64,000 nt of DNA from assembly GCA_021646415.1 (NCBI GenBank), contig SOEU01000006.1:62001-126000 (forward strand). The letters are read 5' to 3'. Shown one piece after another: positions 1,458-10,803 of the stretch (positions within the stretch are counted from its first letter, which is position 1; every line of letters begins with the position of its first letter). The notes under the pieces are model-generated. The model did no database searches. It saw nothing but the letters and a program-made list of their open reading frames with translations, and had not been told where the DNA came from. The stretch is from Candidatus Brocadia sp. (lineage in GTDB: Bacteria; Planctomycetota; Brocadiia; Brocadiales; Brocadiaceae). The translations under genes and the position numbers were made by a program.

Positions 1458-4400
1458 TTAATCCTTCTCTATCTTTATTAATTCACCATTCAGGTACCTC
1501 CTCATGAAATCGTTCTCATTTCCTGCGGTATAACCCGTTTTAGCAGGATCCCATAATCCCTTTCCACCAATACCGCCATCTTCTGCCTTGGTAATCTTCA
1601 CCAGGGTCTCCTTAGGAACTGTATTGATGCCATGATTATCAGCTTCATAACCAAAAACAAACTTCATGCTTGTCTTTGATTTGTGGAATAAGCTATCCAA
1701 CTGATGCATCGGCATGGACCAGTCCCGCGTGATACTCTGCTGGGAACCATAACGGAAACTGGATTGATATCCCGTACCAGCCGACAGTGCTCTGCCATCC
1801 GGTCTTGTCTCATGAGCCTTTACACTTCTTTCCGTTGAAATCCATGCAGAATGTTTCATCATTGTTACTCCATATGGGTAAGCTGGATTATACTTGCACC
1901 GTAACATGAGCCTTGCCACCTTATAAAATGGATCGTTTGGTTTCCAGCCTTCATATGGTCTATCGGCTGGATTTGCATCGACGTAGACATAATCACCATC
2001 ATTGATGCCTAAATCCTTAGCCGCCTGCGGGTTTATATTAATTTGATGCTCACCAACACCCGGCATCCTCTTGTCCATCCTATAGGGATCGCCAAAATTG
2101 TTATTCCAGATGAAGTTCCAGTCTGTTACCGCCCATTGTGAATGCACCGTATGTCTGGATTTCGGTGTCACGCAATAGAATTTATAGCCTTTTTCCCACA
2201 GGAAGTTCTTCGTCTGCTTAATTTCTTCCCATGACTTCTTGATATTCCTGACAGTTCTTTCATCCCAATGTTCTGCACTCTCAGGGATTCCATAATCATC
2301 AGGACGGATATAAGGATTAGTGCTGGCGATAACGTTCGGCAGATACGGAGTAGCCTCAGGTCCTTCGCGATGAACGATGAAATTCTCGCCATACTCAACG
2401 ATCTCTGATTCATCATTGTAAGCCTGTAACCTTCCCGTTGGAGTATAGAATGGCAGACTCTCGTGTACCTGCTCCCAGAATGGATGCCTTGGGTAAGTCC
2501 TGTAGAGCAACAAGGCAACGCCCGGTTCCCCATATTTCCCATTCACAATATCCTCAAAAGTATAACCTTTTAAGGTCGTACTTCCATCCAGCAGTCTCTG
2601 GATATACACTTCGGGCCTGCCTTCTAAGGCAAACTTCCAGTAATCTCTAAACCTCATATCCCTGAGTACCCCCCCCAGCTTCGCTGCCATGCCCGCAAGG
2701 ATCATCACATCGTCTTTTGAATCATTAACCGGCCTTATGCCGCCCTTCCATATCTGCACAAATGGATTAGAACATGAGCTTGTAATCTCATGGGTTTCAA
2801 ACTCTGCCCAGGAATTTGCCGGGAATGCAAAGTCTGCATACTCAATAGAACCAGTCACCTCAATATCGGTGGACATAATTTGTTCGATATTTGGGTTCAC
2901 GTTCTTCAGCATTTGGTACACATGCTTTGCGTTGTTGACCAGGTTCACGTTGGTAAACCACATGATCTTGGTTGGTGTCGGCATATGTGTTTTCCCCGTA
3001 AAGCATTTACGTCCGTACTTGGGTGTATTAACAATCAACGGCCTGTCATTATGATTCCAGTAAGCCACCTCTTCGTCATAGGCGCGACCTTTTACCTTCA
3101 GATCCATTGCAGGCGCGTCTGGATCAAGGTTTGGATTGAATACATCTTCCGCTACCCATCCATAAAATCCCGGACCACACCATTTTGCAGACTGAAAATT
3201 GCCGGCCTTGTAGTTACCTGACCAGGTATGGGAACCAGAACCTTTATAGCCTACATTGCCAGTTAGCATAAGAGGTAAATACGTCGACCTGTTAAATAAC
3301 GTTGCATGAAACCAGTGATTGATGCCTTCACCATAATGAATCGCTACAGGTTTTATCGTGGCAATATCATGTGCCAGCCTTACGATTAATTCTTTTGGTG
3401 AATTGGTTATTTCAACAACTGTATCAAGATCATAATCTTTCAGATGGATCTTATACATCTCAAAGAGTGGCATGACCTCGACCTCTTTACCATCAACAGT
3501 TTTTACCTTAAAAGTACCATCGAGCACAGGATCAATTCCTTTAGCCACCAGTTTGTCACCTACATCATCTCTGGTAATTGGCTTCGGACTGTCGGTCTTT
3601 GCATCCCATACAACAAAGTCACCAATCATTTCTCTTTGATCATCATGCAAACCTTGAATCTTAAAGCTCGGACCATGAGAAATATCTTCCGGTTTATAAT
3701 CCGGGAAGATGTCCTTCGCCTGTAATCTTTTCAGAGTATCCGTCCTGACAAGCAAGGGGAAATCAGTAAACTTCTTCACATAATCCGCGTCATACAGCTT
3801 CTCGTCCATCAATATTTTCGTTAAACCCAGGAAAAGCGCCGTATCGGTATTACACCTGATCGGTATCCAGTAATCAGCCTTTTGAGATGATGGACTGTAT
3901 TCCGGTGTGATGACAACCAGTTTCCCGCCCCTTTCCATTACCTCCGTAAGCCAGTGTGCCTCTGGCATCTTGTTTTCGATGAGATTTTTCCCCGTTTGGA
4001 TAACCAGCTTTGAAAACCGGATGTCGTTCATGTCAACATCTGATGTCTGCAGCCCGTGAACAAATGGATGGCCAGGGGCCTGATCTCCATGCCACGTATA
4101 GTTGGACCAGTTTCTTCCACCTAATGCCTTATCCGGGCCTACTCCTCTGTTGTGACTGTCAACTAAGGCGAGGGTATTGTTAAACCGGTACATGCCATAC
4201 TTCCCTATGACACCCAAAAGACCCATCCCACCACGCCCCTTGAAGGTACGGGTGCCAGCACCCTTCATGGCATCCACCATCTCTTTCGGATAGCCTTGCT
4301 CTATAAGTTTCTTTGCACCTTCTTCTCCGCTGTACTTCTTGGTTATATGGATAATCCCCTTTGCCGCATATGTCCAGGCATCATCCCAGGACGCCTTTAA

Positions 4401-4907
4401 AAGCTCGTCCTGCCCGCGGGCATCAAACAGATATTTTGATTTATTTTCTGGTGTCAATTCCGGAAATCCGTCATCTGCCCATTGCTTCCACCCTTTTCTG
4501 ATAAGCGGGTACCTTAACCGGTAAGGTCCGTACACCCTCCGATGGAAGGTATAACCCTTGAGGCACATCCTGGGGTTCCAGTTCCTTGTGGCCTTGTTTC
4601 CATACAGGTCTGAATAATTCTGGTGATCGTAGTTTTGCTCGACCCTCATAATCACTTCATTCCTTACAAATGCCCTTACCCTGCAGGCATGGGTATCATT
4701 CGGTGAACACGTATAGGTAAATGTGCGGTCGTACCTGTATTGATCCCGGTACACACTTTCCCATGCACGGTCAGGATAGGCGTCCAATGGATTTCCTACC
4801 TCAACAGCGGGTTTTAAGAGCCTAAATGCCATTGCTTTATTGGCAAGGGTAAAGGTCGCTCCCGTTGCACCTGCCACCTGCAGGAAAGTCCTTCTTGTAA
4901 GCTTCAT
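1458..4907 (-). CDS. nxrA: Nitrite oxidoreductase catalytic subunit alpha (molybdopterin, type II DMSO reductase family)
   Basis: NxrA of 1149 residues carries the Mo-bis-MGD site that interconverts nitrite and nitrate. The N-terminus has a twin-arginine signal (TRRTFLQVAG, R5-R6), so the folded protein is exported, in anammox cells presumably into the anammoxosome. A first [4Fe-4S] site is visible as C67, C75 and C115, with D71 or H73 as likely fourth ligand in CSPNDTHAC. The WHGD motif near residue 275 supplies the Asp that ligates Mo in type II enzymes (compare WYGD in NarG). Length and motifs match anammox NxrA. It is the last nxr gene, 67 nt after a putative zincin gene, and probably shares the transcript starting upstream of nxrC. 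AGGAG stands about 8 nt before the ATG at 4907. Confidence 0.97.
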   Translation of the reverse strand: MKLTRRTFLQVAGATGATFTLANKAMAFRLLKPAVEVGNPLDAYPDRAWESVYRDQYRYDRTFTYTCSPNDTHACRVRAFVRNEVIMRVEQNYDHQNYSDLYGNKATRNWNPRMCLKGYTFHRRVYGPYRLRYPLIRKGWKQWADDGFPELTPENKSKYLFDARGQDELLKASWDDAWTYAAKGIIHITKKYSGEEGAKKLIEQGYPKEMVDAMKGAGTRTFKGRGGMGLLGVIGKYGMYRFNNTLALVDSHNRGVGPDKALGGRNWSNYTWHGDQAPGHPFVHGLQTSDVDMNDIRFSKLVIQTGKNLIENKMPEAHWLTEVMERGGKLVVITPEYSPSSQKADYWIPIRCNTDTALFLGLTKILMDEKLYDADYVKKFTDFPLLVRTDTLKRLQAKDIFPDYKPEDISHGPSFKIQGLHDDQREMIGDFVVWDAKTDSPKPITRDDVGDKLVAKGIDPVLDGTFKVKTVDGKEVEVMPLFEMYKIHLKDYDLDTVVEITNSPKELIVRLAHDIATIKPVAIHYGEGINHWFHATLFNRSTYLPLMLTGNVGYKGSGSHTWSGNYKAGNFQSAKWCGPGFYGWVAEDVFNPNLDPDAPAMDLKVKGRAYDEEVAYWNHNDRPLIVNTPKYGRKCFTGKTHMPTPTKIMWFTNVNLVNNAKHVYQMLKNVNPNIEQIMSTDIEVTGSIEYADFAFPANSWAEFETHEITSSCSNPFVQIWKGGIRPVNDSKDDVMILAGMAAKLGGVLRDMRFRDYWKFALEGRPEVYIQRLLDGSTTLKGYTFEDIVNGKYGEPGVALLLYRTYPRHPFWEQVHESLPFYTPTGRLQAYNDESEIVEYGENFIVHREGPEATPYLPNVIASTNPYIRPDDYGIPESAEHWDERTVRNIKKSWEEIKQTKNFLWEKGYKFYCVTPKSRHTVHSQWAVTDWNFIWNNNFGDPYRMDKRMPGVGEHQININPQAAKDLGINDGDYVYVDANPADRPYEGWKPNDPFYKVARLMLRCKYNPAYPYGVTMMKHSAWISTERSVKAHETRPDGRALSAGTGYQSSFRYGSQQSITRDWSMPMHQLDSLFHKSKTSMKFVFGYEADNHGINTVPKETLVKITKAEDGGIGGKGLWDPAKTGYTAGNENDFMRRYLNGELIKIEKD

Positions 4908-4974
4908 ATTTCCTACTCCTTTCTCAATTTAAAAACCATTTATATAAAAAGTATTGCCTAATTATTATAAAATA

Positions 4975-5928
4975 TTAACAAACAGTTTTCCTAACTTTGT
5001 AAGCCTCGATGCATTGTCCACACACGCCATCTTCCGGTTCCCATCCGGGAAAATCCTTTTTTATTGCATTCACAAGATAAGCATCTTGTTCAATATTTTC
5101 TACCCAATGATACGTGCGAAATTGGCATAAGGGACATTGAGCACCAGGCAGGATGGTTTTTTTCTTCTTAAGAGTATGCTTTATGGGCAACCCTTCAGAA
5201 ATTTTTATTACTTCATTCACATCTTTTGCCAGCCTCAGTATCTTATCATGCGTTAAATTCTCATCTTGCCACAGAAAATCAAAAATAGCGATTTTCACTT
5301 CATCGGGAATCTTTTTATAAAGAGCTTCAAATTCTCTATATCTTCCTTCTTTATCAGAAAGCGTTTCTTTCCCTTTCCTGATCAATCTGCTATCAACATA
5401 AACATCCCAAAAAGTACAATATCGCTCCTTGACTATACTTTCTTCCATAGGATTGCCGCCGAGGCGTTCATCACGATAGCCGTATGTTTCACTGAGCATA
5501 TCGGAGGCATGCATCAATTCATGCCTGACTAACTTTCTTAAATAGGGAATTTCCCGGAAACGGTCTGGCATTAATTTAACAACTATCTTTTTTTGACCAG
5601 ACTCCTGATTCATCCCTTTTGTAAGATAAGCACCTTCATCAAAATTATTCGCTGCCTTTGCAATCACCCCCCCGCAAGCCTTTTCTTCCAGCTCAGGAAA
5701 TTCATCAAAAATCTCTTTTATTAGCTTCGGAATCTCAAGTTTTTTAAAGAAGTCCCACTCAATCTTTTTAAACTGCGAAGGCCTCTCATCCATGGGAAAA
5801 TTTTCGTAAACCGGATCAATACAAGAATGATATTCGAGAGTAAAAGAAAAATCACCCTTTTCCTCCCTGGCCCTTAACTCTCCAAATATTACTTCCTCAA
5901 TCAAACCTGGATCAAATTCCAACTTCAT
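4975..5928 (-). CDS. Putative zinc metalloprotease-like protein (HELMH motif) with C-terminal zinc ribbon, NXR operon
   Basis: About 317 residues. The centre contains VRHELMHASDML, an HExxH zincin motif whose HASD continuation resembles the HELIHA(F/Y)D box of the ATP23/M76 peptidases. The C-terminus has CPLC and CGQC pairs about 45 residues apart, probably a zinc ribbon. No signal peptide or membrane helix is seen, so it should be cytoplasmic. The start at 5928 is favoured because GAGGA lies 6 nt upstream; an ATG at 5934 overlaps the stop of the chaperone gene but has no spacing for a ribosome site. Tight coupling to the chaperone and its place before nxrA suggest a role in NXR maturation or quality control. 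This is inference; the protein family is not one I can name. Confidence 0.7.
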   Translation of the reverse strand: MKLEFDPGLIEEVIFGELRAREEKGDFSFTLEYHSCIDPVYENFPMDERPSQFKKIEWDFFKKLEIPKLIKEIFDEFPELEEKACGGVIAKAANNFDEGAYLTKGMNQESGQKKIVVKLMPDRFREIPYLRKLVRHELMHASDMLSETYGYRDERLGGNPMEESIVKERYCTFWDVYVDSRLIRKGKETLSDKEGRYREFEALYKKIPDEVKIAIFDFLWQDENLTHDKILRLAKDVNEVIKISEGLPIKHTLKKKKTILPGAQCPLCQFRTYHWVENIEQDAYLVNAIKKDFPGWEPEDGVCGQCIEAYKVRKTVC

Positions 5929-5930
5929 AA

Positions 5931-6725
5931 TCATTCCTCACTAAAATCTTCAGAAGATGCGCAAGACAAACATTCATCCGCAACTCCAGCCACCGCCTCT
6001 TGATTGAGATCAGATTCCTTATACATCTCTGTTTTAACATCCATGAATTTCATTTCCAATCGCAAGAACTCTTTTGTCAAAGCAGATACGGCACAATAAA
6101 AACCTTCTCCTGCCTTCCTGCCAAAGAGAACCGAGAAAAGGGGCACCCATTTCCCTAGATGCTCTTTCAAGAATTTCTTTTGCGCATCTACGCATATCTG
6201 CGCTTTTTCATCTCCATGATTTTCCAAGGCGTAGGCCTGCTTGTACAACAGAAAGTGCATAAACTCCAACTCTACACTAATGTGGTCGCACCGTTCCTTC
6301 TCTAAGTCAGAAATATCAAGCCCAAAAGCTTTATAAAAACCTTGAATATCACCTAACTCATGCACTTGCTGATAAACATGAGCTGCACCATATTGAGTTT
6401 CGTACAAAGGACACTCTTTCGACATGGTGTGTCCGACAATGCGTTGATATATACCTTGCAAGGTTTCAATGTTTGTAACTCTAAACAAATCCTGAACCTC
6501 TTTCAAACATCTCCTTAACTCCACACCATCGTCTATACCTTCGTAACATAGTATCAGCTCGTTCTCGTGTTCCTGCAAATCAGGACTTTTCAGTATTGAC
6601 AAATTCTTCTCTGTTGGGTAAAGAAAACAGGCAGACAAAACCTGATACATTGCACTCCGTACAAGCAAGCAACCCACTCTGGATGCAACTTGTTGATTTA
6701 AATGACTACTACTGTCGACTTCCAT
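5931..6725 (-). CDS. TorD/NarJ-family molybdoenzyme chaperone for NXR
   Basis: Predicted 264-residue cytoplasmic chaperone. The central PLYETQYG segment, a following LGDIQGFYKAFGLDI segment and CDHISVELEFMHFLLYKQA are the family's characteristic boxes (compare PLHETEYG, LADIAGFYRAFG and DHLAVELEFM). Such proteins bind the signal peptide of a Tat-exported molybdoenzyme and hold the apoprotein until cofactor insertion; nxrA with its twin-arginine leader two genes on is the obvious client. The ATG at 6725 is preferred over 6737 because TTGAGG lies 7 nt upstream. It follows nxrB by 14 nt. Relatives in anammox are sometimes called NxrD; the sequence does not prove that name. Confidence 0.88.
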   Translation of the reverse strand: MEVDSSSHLNQQVASRVGCLLVRSAMYQVLSACFLYPTEKNLSILKSPDLQEHENELILCYEGIDDGVELRRCLKEVQDLFRVTNIETLQGIYQRIVGHTMSKECPLYETQYGAAHVYQQVHELGDIQGFYKAFGLDISDLEKERCDHISVELEFMHFLLYKQAYALENHGDEKAQICVDAQKKFLKEHLGKWVPLFSVLFGRKAGEGFYCAVSALTKEFLRLEMKFMDVKTEMYKESDLNQEAVAGVADECLSCASSEDFSEE

Positions 6726-6739
6726 AATAAACCTCAATT

Positions 6740-7951
6740 CTAAATTGAATTGTAATGTTTTGGGTCTCTGATATGAACAGGCTCTTCTATTGTTGTTCTT
6801 ACAATCTCCTGTCCATCCTCACCATATCCAATAACGGTATCATTGTACAACTCAAACTTCTTACCGTGAATCGTCGTTTCAAACACCTTCGGCCCTTCCT
6901 CAATCTTGTACTCAAATATAATTGATTGGGTCATCCTGAATAAAGACATCACCGCCAATCTTTCTCGGGAAGGTACCATAAATTTATCAATCGCCTCATC
7001 AACACCGGGACCAAACATCTGTCTCAGATAAGACCTTGGCGCCCACCTCGGTGGTATATAGTATATGTTAGGCTCCGTTCCAAACTGGGGATAAAGAGGT
7101 AATGCTAATTTGTCGTGCCTAATTAACCACGTGACTGGATTCTTCGGATTATCATCCAGGAATCCCTGCAAACGAATCTGCCCTACACACGCAGCCATAC
7201 ACCTCGTTTCCATCGGGCGCCCCTTCGTTAATGGATCTCTCCCTTCAACTCTGGGATAACAGGCGATGCACTTTTCACTTACCCTTGTTAAACCCCGGTA
7301 CATGGGTTTTTTGTACGGGCATTGCTCTACGCATTTCCTGTATCCCCTACACCTTTTCTGGTCGATAAGAACTATTCCGTCTTCTTTCCTCTTATAAATA
7401 GCCTTTCTTGGACAGGCGGCCAGACAACCTGGATACGTGCAATGGTTACAAAGTCTTTGAATATAAAAGAACCAACGACTATGTTCCGGCAACGATGAAT
7501 ATTCGTCGGGCTTATTACTCTTTGCTACATCCTCACCAAAATTTGGCGCCCTCCATTCCTTATCCTCCGGAATGTATCCTACCGCCCACTGATTAATATT
7601 CTTCTTCGAGGCCGCCTCAAATATCGTGTCACCTTCATATACTCCATAGGGAGACAGCTTTTCATCTTTCTCATCGGTATACCAGGTATTTTCACCATTA
7701 TCAATTAACTTTAACGTTTTAACGTCCCAGGATTGCGGATACCCACCATACGGTTTTGTTTCCACATTGTTCCACCACATGTGCTCCTGCCCTTTGTTAT
7801 AAGTCCACGCACTCTTGCAGGCCATGGTACACGTCTGACAGGCAATACACCTGTTGATATTAAATACCGCAGCAAATTGTCTTTTTGGTCTGGATTCGAA
7901 ATAGGGATACTCCATACGTCTCCCTAAATGCCAGTTATGTACTAACGTCAT
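6740..7951 (-). CDS. nxrB: Nitrite oxidoreductase iron-sulfur subunit beta
   Basis: NxrB, 403 residues, carries electrons from the Mo subunit to the heme subunit. Four cysteine groups are visible: C35-x2-C-x2-C-x3-C45; C168, C171, C176, C180; C201, C207, C211 with Tyr204 in place of the fourth Cys (CRGYRKC, NarH has CRGWRMC), so one cluster should be [3Fe-4S]; and C228, C231, C251, C255. There is no signal peptide, as expected for a subunit co-exported with NxrA. AAGGAGG stands 8 nt before the ATG. It follows nxrC by 51 nt and is followed by the chaperone gene. nxrB is also used as a marker gene for anammox and nitrite oxidisers. Confidence 0.97.
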   Translation of the reverse strand: MTLVHNWHLGRRMEYPYFESRPKRQFAAVFNINRCIACQTCTMACKSAWTYNKGQEHMWWNNVETKPYGGYPQSWDVKTLKLIDNGENTWYTDEKDEKLSPYGVYEGDTIFEAASKKNINQWAVGYIPEDKEWRAPNFGEDVAKSNKPDEYSSLPEHSRWFFYIQRLCNHCTYPGCLAACPRKAIYKRKEDGIVLIDQKRCRGYRKCVEQCPYKKPMYRGLTRVSEKCIACYPRVEGRDPLTKGRPMETRCMAACVGQIRLQGFLDDNPKNPVTWLIRHDKLALPLYPQFGTEPNIYYIPPRWAPRSYLRQMFGPGVDEAIDKFMVPSRERLAVMSLFRMTQSIIFEYKIEEGPKVFETTIHGKKFELYNDTVIGYGEDGQEIVRTTIEEPVHIRDPKHYNSI

Positions 7952-8002: not shown

Positions 8003-8977
8003 TTATTGCCAGGCAACTCTTTCCAGCGTTGCGGGATGCCATTGAGAAGATATGTTCTTTTGTCCGTTCCTATCTTTTTCACCACCATTCCATACCGCCA
8101 TGTTGAAATACGTAGTTCCACCAGGAACAAATTGCACATCATGGGGATCCTCTGTAATTAACGAACGATAGATAATCACTGTCCATACCCCATCCTCATA
8201 TTTGCTGCATCCGTTCACGTCCTGATGAGCCTGCGTAGTAAGGGTACCAAAACCCTCTGCATTTAAATCTTCTACCGTTCTCCCCCTTCCTGGCTGAGAA
8301 AGCAAATTATTTGCAGCCCTTCCACCCGATAAAACCTCTACGCTGGTTATTAGTTCCCGATGATAATACGCACTGTAAGGATTCAAATTAAAATCGTCGT
8401 GCATATTTGGGTACTGTGCTTCGACATCTTCCAACTCGCCCTTTACCAGCAAATCCGCCTCCCAGTCTGCCTTCCAGTGCCAGAGGTTCGTGGGCTTTTC
8501 CCTGTCTCCCATCCTTGGACTAAAATGTTCCGCCGGTGTTATCTCAACCGCCCCCAGAGGAAACATCAAGGCCACCGCATCTCTGAACTCCTGCACGGCT
8601 ATTGCCCTGGCATTCTTTGTTGGATCACTCCAGGTAATCTTGAAATAAATCGCAAGACCATCATGAATAGCCTTTACATCCGCACTCTTCACCGAGCCAC
8701 CCCCATTGGGAAATGCCTTATCCTGCATATTAAGGGGCACCGTAACGGCCTGCGCATCGTTAAAAAAACCTTGCAATGATTCCACATCCATATGATACGG
8801 CTTGGCTACCTCTACATATTTCACTGTTAACACCTCTTTGGCCGGAGTAAATTCCTCTTCAGACATCCCTTTAACCCCTGGCGCCGTCTCCTCCGCTGCA
8901 AATAATGTAGCGCTAAGAAACGCACAGCTTAGGAGGGCAACACCATACCTTTTAAACAACACATAAGATTTCATCAT
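8003..8977 (-). CDS. nxrC: Nitrite oxidoreductase gamma subunit, heme b (ethylbenzene dehydrogenase gamma fold)
   Basis: About 324 residues with a cleavable signal peptide (hydrophobic stretch ending LFAAEE). The body is an EB_dh-type domain. The segment PRMGDREKPTNLWHWKADW holds a Met and a Lys (M156 and K169 counting from this start) in the places that bind heme b in ethylbenzene dehydrogenase gamma (Met/Lys ligation is known there; here it is by analogy). AGGAGG lies 8 nt before the ATG at 8977; the upstream extension to 9031 is unlikely. It is the first gene of the nxrC-nxrB-chaperone-zincin-nxrA unit behind a consensus -10 box. It probably hands electrons between NxrB and soluble cytochromes. 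Confidence 0.93.
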   Translation of the reverse strand: MMKSYVLFKRYGVALLSCAFLSATLFAAEETAPGVKGMSEEEFTPAKEVLTVKYVEVAKPYHMDVESLQGFFNDAQAVTVPLNMQDKAFPNGGGSVKSADVKAIHDGLAIYFKITWSDPTKNARAIAVQEFRDAVALMFPLGAVEITPAEHFSPRMGDREKPTNLWHWKADWEADLLVKGELEDVEAQYPNMHDDFNLNPYSAYYHRELITSVEVLSGGRAANNLLSQPGRGRTVEDLNAEGFGTLTTQAHQDVNGCSKYEDGVWTVIIYRSLITEDPHDVQFVPGGTTYFNMAVWNGGEKDRNGQKNISSQWHPATLERVAWQ

Positions 8978-9035
8978 TCTCCACTCCTCCTCATAATAAC
9001 CATTACTCGTATAAAAATAGTTACAAAACAACCAA

Positions 9036-9480: not shown

Positions 9481-10803
9481 TCAAATCCTATGAAACGAAC
9501 CGTCATTCATAAATGCAGTTCTTGCTTCATTAACTATCTGTGTTGTGATTTCTCTATAACCCTTCCCAGAAGCATACTCCTCGATTTTTTTCCTAACCAT
9601 GTCTCTAACAAAAGAAGGAATACGCTCTGTTTGTATCTGTGCCTCCTGCGTCCAAACAGGGATTTGTGTTCTTGTATGTGGTTTTTGGTCACTCTTAACA
9701 GTTCTCAAAAAACCATCTTGATTATGCGAGTGATCATGCGTGCTCTTTGCTATTTCTTTTTCCTTTCCCGATACCTTCAGATATTCTTGATTATCCACGG
9801 AAACATCAAGCATTGCGTCCTTGTTTCCCCCGGTAAGTAATACATTACAAGGCGCCAACCTCATTAAATTTTCTGTTGTACTGCCAAGATCCAATCCATT
9901 GGTGTTATGCACGCCCGTGCGTCCCATGATTACCGTTGTTGGTTTTTCGTTCTGTATGTATTTTAATATTTTATCATACGGTTTACCATCCATCAGAACG
10001 ATATCCGTTTCCACCCCGGCATCTATTGCCATTCTGTTTACCCGATCCAGATGACCCTGATATATCTTTGCAAGACCTTTATCAATAATCTCCTCATGGA
10101 GCGTTTCTTGTTCCTTAAACCTGAAAATTTGCCCTGCTTCCTTAGAAAGGACATTTGCAATACTTTCAAAGGCGACTCGATGATAATGCGGATCAAATAC
10201 AGATACTGCAGTAAGTTTTAAGTTAAACAATTTAGCGAAGGAAATGGCCGATTTAACCCCTGCGAAAGATGGTGCACTTCCATCTACTGCAATTACCACC
10301 TTTCCCTCTAAACGCCTATTTTTTGCCACAAGGACATCGGTCTTGATGCGCCTCACCACACGCTCACAAACACTCCCAATTATATTCTCATTTACAGCGG
10401 CCAAACCAAGCGCCCCCATAATCACAAGATCATATTGATTTCCCTGTACTTCCCTAATGATCTCGTAATAGTTTTTACCTTCTAACAAAAGACCTTCGTG
10501 TGGAATAGTTGCTTCATTGCACTTATTTTTAAACACATCCAGGTAAGATTCAGAAATCAACTTAAGCCCAAGGTTGATCAATGAACTATGAAGGTCACGC
10601 TGCCTTTGAAGAACACTTTCGTCCTGATATTGTGGTGGCAACCCCTTTTCCATATCGCGAAACCGTCTTTGATGCAACGATGCATCATAGACATGACATC
10701 CCACCAGCAGGGAGCCAAACTTTTTGGCGAGGTCAATACCAAGGTCAATACAAAAATTAGAGTGGCATGAATTATCAATAGCGATAAATATTTTTTTATA
10801 CAT
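9481..10803 (-). CDS. Tandem universal stress protein with C-terminal PCP_red-like helical domain
   Basis: 440 residues. Two UspA folds are seen, about residues 1-160 and 166-325; each has the ATP-binding pattern G-x2-G-x9-G-S (GALG...GSV and GRTG...GST). The C-terminus (roughly 385-440) has WTQEAQIQTERIPSFVR and later GYREIT, a pattern found at the end of the light-independent protochlorophyllide reductase B subunit and attached to stress or redox proteins. The gene sits between the cytochrome block and nxrC, as USP genes do in other anammox nxr clusters, pointing to a regulatory or redox-sensing role in this pathway. No strong ribosome site precedes the ATG. Confidence 0.85.
   Translation of the reverse strand: MYKKIFIAIDNSCHSNFCIDLGIDLAKKFGSLLVGCHVYDASLHQRRFRDMEKGLPPQYQDESVLQRQRDLHSSLINLGLKLISESYLDVFKNKCNEATIPHEGLLLEGKNYYEIIREVQGNQYDLVIMGALGLAAVNENIIGSVCERVVRRIKTDVLVAKNRRLEGKVVIAVDGSAPSFAGVKSAISFAKLFNLKLTAVSVFDPHYHRVAFESIANVLSKEAGQIFRFKEQETLHEEIIDKGLAKIYQGHLDRVNRMAIDAGVETDIVLMDGKPYDKILKYIQNEKPTTVIMGRTGVHNTNGLDLGSTTENLMRLAPCNVLLTGGNKDAMLDVSVDNQEYLKVSGKEKEIAKSTHDHSHNQDGFLRTVKSDQKPHTRTQIPVWTQEAQIQTERIPSFVRDMVRKKIEEYASGKGYREITTQIVNEARTAFMNDGSFHRI

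Follow-up and report, generated by a model that had tools for sequence, protein, structure and literature searches.

TorD-type chaperones act in the cytoplasm, and the system-specific chaperones TorD, NarJ and DmsD are each the dedicated maturation factor of one molybdoenzyme. To our knowledge, little is known of the assembly of NXR, and we know of no processing event of this enzyme besides signal removal. Virtually all nitrate in nature is made by NXR, as stated in the report on its structure (PMC8387239), according to which the enzyme purified from K. stuttgartiensis consists only of subunits A, B and C, with T added in the tubules. In Ca. Kuenenia stuttgartiensis, the nxr cluster kustd1699-1713 includes kustd1701, an 'unknown protein' placed between kustd1700 (NxrA) and kustd1702 ('hypothetical'), with NxrB as kustd1703; its transcript was down 5.5-fold along with the NXR cluster under NO, and the protein escaped detection although NxrABC were abundant (PMC6423088). 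In the full-text literature, most subscription papers excepted, kustd1701 was met in one paper, under that designation, and it is not discussed in the available part of the structure paper. The gene set common to Kuenenia, Nitrospira and Nitrospina was described by Lucker et al. as holding 'one putative zinc finger' protein (PMC3578206). Nitrospirales have a TorD cluster that includes proteins of unknown function (PMC12342949). The described system closest in mechanism is BepA (M48) of E. coli, a zincin with both protease and chaperone-like roles, which assembles or degrades its one dedicated client, LptD (PMC8423444).

Here we describe an NXR-linked protein of probable zincin fold, with the working name ZINC, a previously undescribed protein that is probably a dedicated NXR assembly helper. 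kustd1701 is its counterpart by position only (PMC6423088); in Kuenenia hertensis (L057) a protein 56% identical to ZINC is found with TorD, ZINC and NxrA in the same order. The putative zinc finger protein of Lucker et al. may be ZINC, as it shares the C-terminal zinc-finger-like domain and the NXR gene set, although neither a zincin fold nor an HExxH motif is described in the available part of that paper (PMC3578206). ZINC resembles TorD, NarJ and DmsD in its kind of role and adjoins TorD, but it is unrelated to them in sequence and accompanies TorD rather than being one itself. BepA serves as a mechanism model, although it is periplasmic and of another family, and ZINC has no match to the M48 profile.

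The ZINC gene, its operon and predicted fold

ZINC is encoded on the minus strand at 4975-5934 of the window (the whole 64,000-nt stretch of Candidatus Brocadia sp. DNA that was analysed); the plus-strand reading of 4975-5928 has stops throughout. Translation from the ATG at 5934 gives 319 amino acids and from the second in-frame ATG, at 5928, 317 (MKLEFD...). The latter appears to be the likelier start: it is preceded at ~7 nt by a GAGGA that directly adjoins the ATG at 5934, and in many homologues the alignment begins only at residue 3. Near relatives have an open frame here as well. Residues 138-145, HELMHASD (5500-5523, minus strand), contain the HExxH motif and the near-invariant D145, and residues 176-183, WDVYVDSR (5386-5409, minus strand), contain W176, found in 99 of 99 loci, R183, found in most, and D177 and D181, either of which is a candidate third metal ligand. 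At the C-terminus, C267xxC270 and C305xxC308 (5011-5136, minus strand) form a putative zinc finger, the C4 domain. H138, E139, H142, D145 and all four cysteines are invariant in a 12-sequence anammox alignment reaching down to 35% identity, from which we conclude that the HExxH motif is genuine and maintained by selection in anammox bacteria.

The surrounding operon, also on the minus strand, runs NxrC (8003-9031, an ethylbenzene-dehydrogenase-type heme subunit, PF09459), NxrB (6740-7951, the iron-sulfur subunit), a TorD-like chaperone (5931-6737; PF02613, E 1e-18; the type II DMSO reductase chaperone model TIGR03482 below cutoff; a C-terminal CLSC tail), ZINC and NxrA (1458-4907, the molybdopterin catalytic subunit with a Tat signal), with nxrA beginning ~70 nt after ZINC. 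ZINC and torD are indeed tightly coupled, since the torD stop and the ATG at 5934 share an ATGA (5931-5934). A preliminary description of this DNA had reported an open reading frame with HELMHASD and a C-terminal CxxC, coupled to a TorD-like chaperone and followed by nxrA; the frame proved real and conserved, with two CxxC pairs, and the coupling is confirmed by the PF02613 match and the overlap. Further along, the cluster's universal stress protein (9481-10803) carries a fused PCP_red domain (PF08369, E 2.8e-14).

From ~4750 downward the window's nxrA is probably the stand-alone paralogue, as it resembles there the stand-alone nxrA of sister genomes, which has the 875-1360 gene downstream. 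Positions 4767-5138 are ~99% identical to the end of a contig (C3 of G000, L037) whose nxrA is of the operon type. Judged from these alignments, the nxrA joined to ZINC in the window is perhaps an assembly chimera or a product of recombination. ZINC and nxrA as such are also adjacent in dozens of other loci.

A gene between those of TorD and NxrA could encode a subunit of the NXR complex, with a structural or electron-transfer function. We consider this highly improbable, as the NXR purified from K. stuttgartiensis has no subunits but A, B and C, with T added in its tubules (PMC8387239), kustd1701 went undetected despite abundant NxrABC (PMC6423088), and no signal peptide or export signal is evident in the ZINC sequence. 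The non-detection fits a low-abundance factor and, together with the composition of the purified enzyme, suits an assembly factor better than a subunit.

Sequence searches placed ZINC in no described family. Pfam and NCBIfam gave no family match for ZINC, nor did Pfam for 19 diverse members and consensus sequences, and a PDB sequence search with the single protein and with a profile found no match. PF02613, the TorD/NarJ chaperone family, matches the TorD neighbour at 5931-6737 and not ZINC. The weak Pfam match of the C4 domain to the FmdE treble-clef (E 0.009 over 12 residues) is below cutoff. The preliminary description had called the protein a putative zincin and proposed comparison with M76/ATP23. 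With the M76 profile of Pfam, neither the 19 members nor the consensus gave a hit at E up to 5-10, in searches whose HMMER filters drop very weak matches, and kinship at the level of sequence profiles was not borne out; no ATP23/M76 chain is among the structural matches listed by Foldseek and VIA for either model, where absence is no exclusion.

AlphaFold models of ZINC reached a pLDDT of 84.7 with 12 alignment rows and 93.1 with 61 rows. In the second model, strands at 86-93, 101-106 and 115-121 are followed by a helix at 129-147, which carries HExxH, and a helix at 162-186, which carries WDxxxDxR; this order of three strands, HExxH helix and following helix fits the zincin core. The best Foldseek match of the first model was 4l7a, a putative zinc metallopeptidase (E 6e-3, probability ~0.9); nothing was found at E 0.001 with either model, and the second, more confident one lost 4l7a. 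Most top rows of the VIA structure alignment are zincins (YbeY, SPRTN/Wss1, M1 peptidases, selecase, Acel_2062, collagenases), each weak, with Z ≤5.6. YbeY, SPRTN/Wss1, selecase, Acel_2062 and BACCAC_01431 (4l7a) resemble the ZINC models in the strand-helix core with its HExxH helix (Z 4.0-5.6 over ~92-163 residues), but none is a strong match (Z <8, Foldseek E >0.001), and ZINC has extra N-terminal helices, C-terminal helices and the C4 domain. We regard a zincin fold as probable, which lends this part of the preliminary description weak support. For the third metal ligand, D145 is near-invariant, yet present in copies that have lost HExxH, and D177 and D181 are conserved in anammox bacteria and absent in some copies with HExxH intact.

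The weak structural matches also include 8s5f, the HExxH domain of a 2-oxoglutarate-dependent oxygenase (Z 4.0, rmsd 5.0, 147 aligned), and ZINC might accordingly be an HExxH enzyme that modifies an NXR residue instead of cutting proteins, such as a peptide hydroxylase of the kind seen in the HExxH domain of ChlB. This is the least probable of the readings considered: many zincin proteases score equally or better, anammox bacteria are anaerobes, and HExxH has been lost repeatedly among homologues.

Linkage to NXR and the NxrA clade

Linkage was tabulated uniformly for 99 full-length ZINC loci, with a limit of 3 kb and some near-duplicates across sources, and nxrA, nxrB or torD was found within this distance in 95. 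The four exceptions are L155, L156 and L162, at contig ends, and L166, an unlinked duplicate. In L166 (G154 C254) HExxH is lost (RER), and its genome carries in addition an intact copy linked to NXR. Among the loci scored as linked, L113 of a Caldithrix MAG is TorD-ZINC alone, in a MAG that yielded no nxrA. Gene order is variable (TorD-ZINC-NxrA, NxrB-TorD-ZINC, ZINC-NxrA), and ZINC abuts torD or nxrA in most loci. With 95 of 99 loci linked, three of the rest at contig ends and one an unlinked duplicate, full-length homologues are not widely present without NXR. By this distribution ZINC is an NXR operon-specific accessory protein.

Among the 62 genomes of the window's order, full-length ZINC is found in Brocadiaceae and in family f4 (Scalinduaceae, from named loci), beside TorD and NxrA. 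nxrA without an NXR-linked ZINC is limited in this order to G014, whose contig begins inside nxrA, and to family f2, which has small genomes and is probably Ca. Bathyanammoxibiaceae. The f2 operons are NxrC-NxrA-NxrB-TorD without a ZINC gene, and their NxrA shares 54-59% identity with that of the window. A second NxrA, at 44-46%, is present in one f2 genome. A scan of genome contigs located NXR-linked ZINC in MAGs labelled Poribacteria, Nitrospinae, Schekmanbacteria, Verrucomicrobia, Omnitrophica and Hydrothermarchaeum, although these labels, above all the archaeal Hydrothermarchaeum, may reflect binning errors. In Planctomycetota, 65 of 392 genomes have a ZINC match, the strong ones including ~27 outside the window's order; the phylum of the Caldithrix MAG has seven full-length ZINC in 82 genomes, Omnitrophota ~10 in 193, Verrucomicrobiota one full-length in 388, Poribacteria four genomes in 85 and Schekmanbacteria two in four.

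This spread bears on a possible regulatory role, in which ZINC would control nxr expression as a zinc-finger sensor of metal, redox or the assembly state of NXR. Conservation of the C4 domain in most loci and the low abundance of kustd1701 (PMC6423088) would suit such a protein, which we nevertheless regard as very unlikely, since Pfam and NCBIfam searches revealed no recognisable DNA-binding domain and ZINC is fixed beside torD or nxrA across phyla whose regulators would differ.

ZINC marks one NxrA clade, whose members share at least ~62% identity with the NxrA of the window. An NxrA search of the 392 planctomycete genomes gave 26 outside Brocadiales with NxrA at ≥62%, and 25 of these have ZINC; in the remaining one, G188, nxrA is cut by the contig end. 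G238 has only ZINC fragments, at contig ends. ZINC was found in none of nine planctomycete genomes with NxrA at 55-61% (G374 is contig-truncated), and no full-length ZINC in those of the 392 whose only NxrA is at 41-46%. The sister NXR operons that were examined (NxrA 54-58% and 41-46%) contain NxrABC, most with TorD, and neither the zincin nor the C4 domain, which indicates that even the closest NXR relatives can do without ZINC and leads us to reject a general accessory role in the DMSO reductase family. In the NxrA tree, a single branch (SH-aLRT 84) separates off all 19 operons without ZINC, a topology consistent with one gain of ZINC followed by co-inheritance and transfer between phyla. 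The linkage and the restriction to a single NxrA clade support the earlier proposal of a factor dedicated to NXR. ZINC also marks the anammox-type NXR clade almost perfectly, providing a way to classify NXR operons.

One Brocadiaceae genome (L089, G018 C3:100000-113000) has a second NXR operon, NxrC-NxrB-TorD-NxrA, without ZINC and with a TorD that has no CLSC tail, and stand-alone nxrA is found in several Brocadiaceae. Both could be served by ZINC in trans.

HExxH loss and a proposed role in NXR biogenesis

HExxH is intact in every Brocadiaceae and Scalindua copy examined, that is in all anammox copies, and lost in 22 of the 99 loci, all outside anammox (for example AELVR, RELAH, QEMMP and REFLY) and nearly all still in an NXR operon. 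The losses are independent, at least five on the tree and seven by parsimony. In these copies D145 and W176 are almost always kept, and R137 and E139 mostly. Two CxxC pairs are present in all anammox copies with complete C-termini and in most others, with C4 missing or degenerate in several non-anammox copies. Many of the HExxH-lost copies retain all four cysteines; L024, L026, L080, L255, L256 and L167-L169 are without the C4 domain too, L024 and L026 being loci from two genomes of a further family of the window's order, f5, where ZINC is NXR-linked with HExxH and C4 domain both lost. In four f71 genomes HExxH is intact, yet both D177 and D181 are gone.

The preliminary description took ZINC to be an active NXR-specific maturation protease, with cutting at a defined site of an NXR precursor as its whole function. 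The intact motif in anammox copies, the zincin-like model and the operon linkage agree with this, but linkage was retained through the loss of HExxH, the f71 copies are without both aspartates, and no processing of NXR beyond signal removal is known to us. We consider such a function unlikely, and the claim does not stand as it was made: relatives have lost HExxH outside anammox, and it is among the anammox copies that the motif holds throughout. On the sequence comparison, ZINC is best read as ancestrally a metalloprotease whose catalysis is separable from its conserved role.

We consider it fairly probable that ZINC is a dedicated biogenesis factor for one NXR clade, working beside the TorD-like chaperone, with binding as its conserved role and proteolysis as an ancestral extra. 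ZINC would act in the cytoplasm, before Tat export of NxrAB. Its N-terminal 250 residues, with their zincin-type fold, may bind a peptide of an immature NXR subunit or of TorD, and the C4 domain would be a zinc-binding recognition or docking module, with zinc presumed at both the C4 and the HExxH sites. In anammox bacteria and the many others where HExxH is intact, ZINC can probably also cut, and might remove a misassembled precursor or process a partner; in other lineages, where the cutting site decayed and the gene was kept in the operon, it would be a chaperone or checkpoint. That the gene stays in the operon after this decay is what suggests binding as the conserved job, and the analogy with BepA and LptD would accommodate proteolysis as an ancestral extra. 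Against ZINC as an NXR biogenesis factor we counted the G018 operon without ZINC, the stand-alone nxrA, the Caldithrix TorD-ZINC without nxrA and the weak fold matches.

More tentatively, and as something possible rather than probable, a molybdoenzyme clade may have gained once a second dedicated maturation factor derived from a protease fold, which works with TorD as a chaperone or checkpoint by holding its substrate and which repeatedly became a pseudoprotease while keeping its place in the operon. The ZINC homologues offer a natural series of intact- and lost-HExxH zincins in which to ask when a protease becomes a chaperone. Apart from TorD, this analysis found no other candidate biogenesis factor fixed next to anammox-type NXR, and ZINC is a specific candidate for co-expression when NXR is reconstituted. 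If the proposed role is true, ZINC would belong to the maturation machinery of the anammox-type NXR clade specifically, and could be a factor that heterologous expression of NXR has lacked.

Short paralogue, TorD tails and isolated C4 domains

Brocadiales also encode a short zincin paralogue (~210 aa, HELMHxxDQ), the core of which is homologous to ZINC (E ~1e-13 to 1e-27). Unlike ZINC it has no C4 domain and no NXR linkage; it is carried by f2 and Scalindua. As it is not linked to NXR, its use as a replacement for ZINC in NXR operons without ZINC is unsupported. In three f2 loci (L028, L032, L035) the paralogue lies near a ~1100-aa ORF, which we take to be mfd from a reading of the product by eye, and its neighbours differ in f4 loci.

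The NXR-type TorD, at 5931-6737 in the window and in many NXR loci, often ends in a CxxC tail (DECLSCAS in Brocadiaceae). A dependence of this tail on ZINC was rejected, because NXR TorDs in operons without ZINC carry such tails too.

The ZINC-type C4 domain is also found in other proteins. In Scalindua (L021:5293-5559, L022:3992-4144, L023:7218-7364 and others) a ~200-aa protein with an apparent signal sequence and this domain lies between nxrB and torD. The domain stands alone in small proteins of Planctomycetota and Omnitrophota with no NXR nearby (L174, L176-L181, L265-L267), and in L181 it is located at the start of a 553-residue frame.
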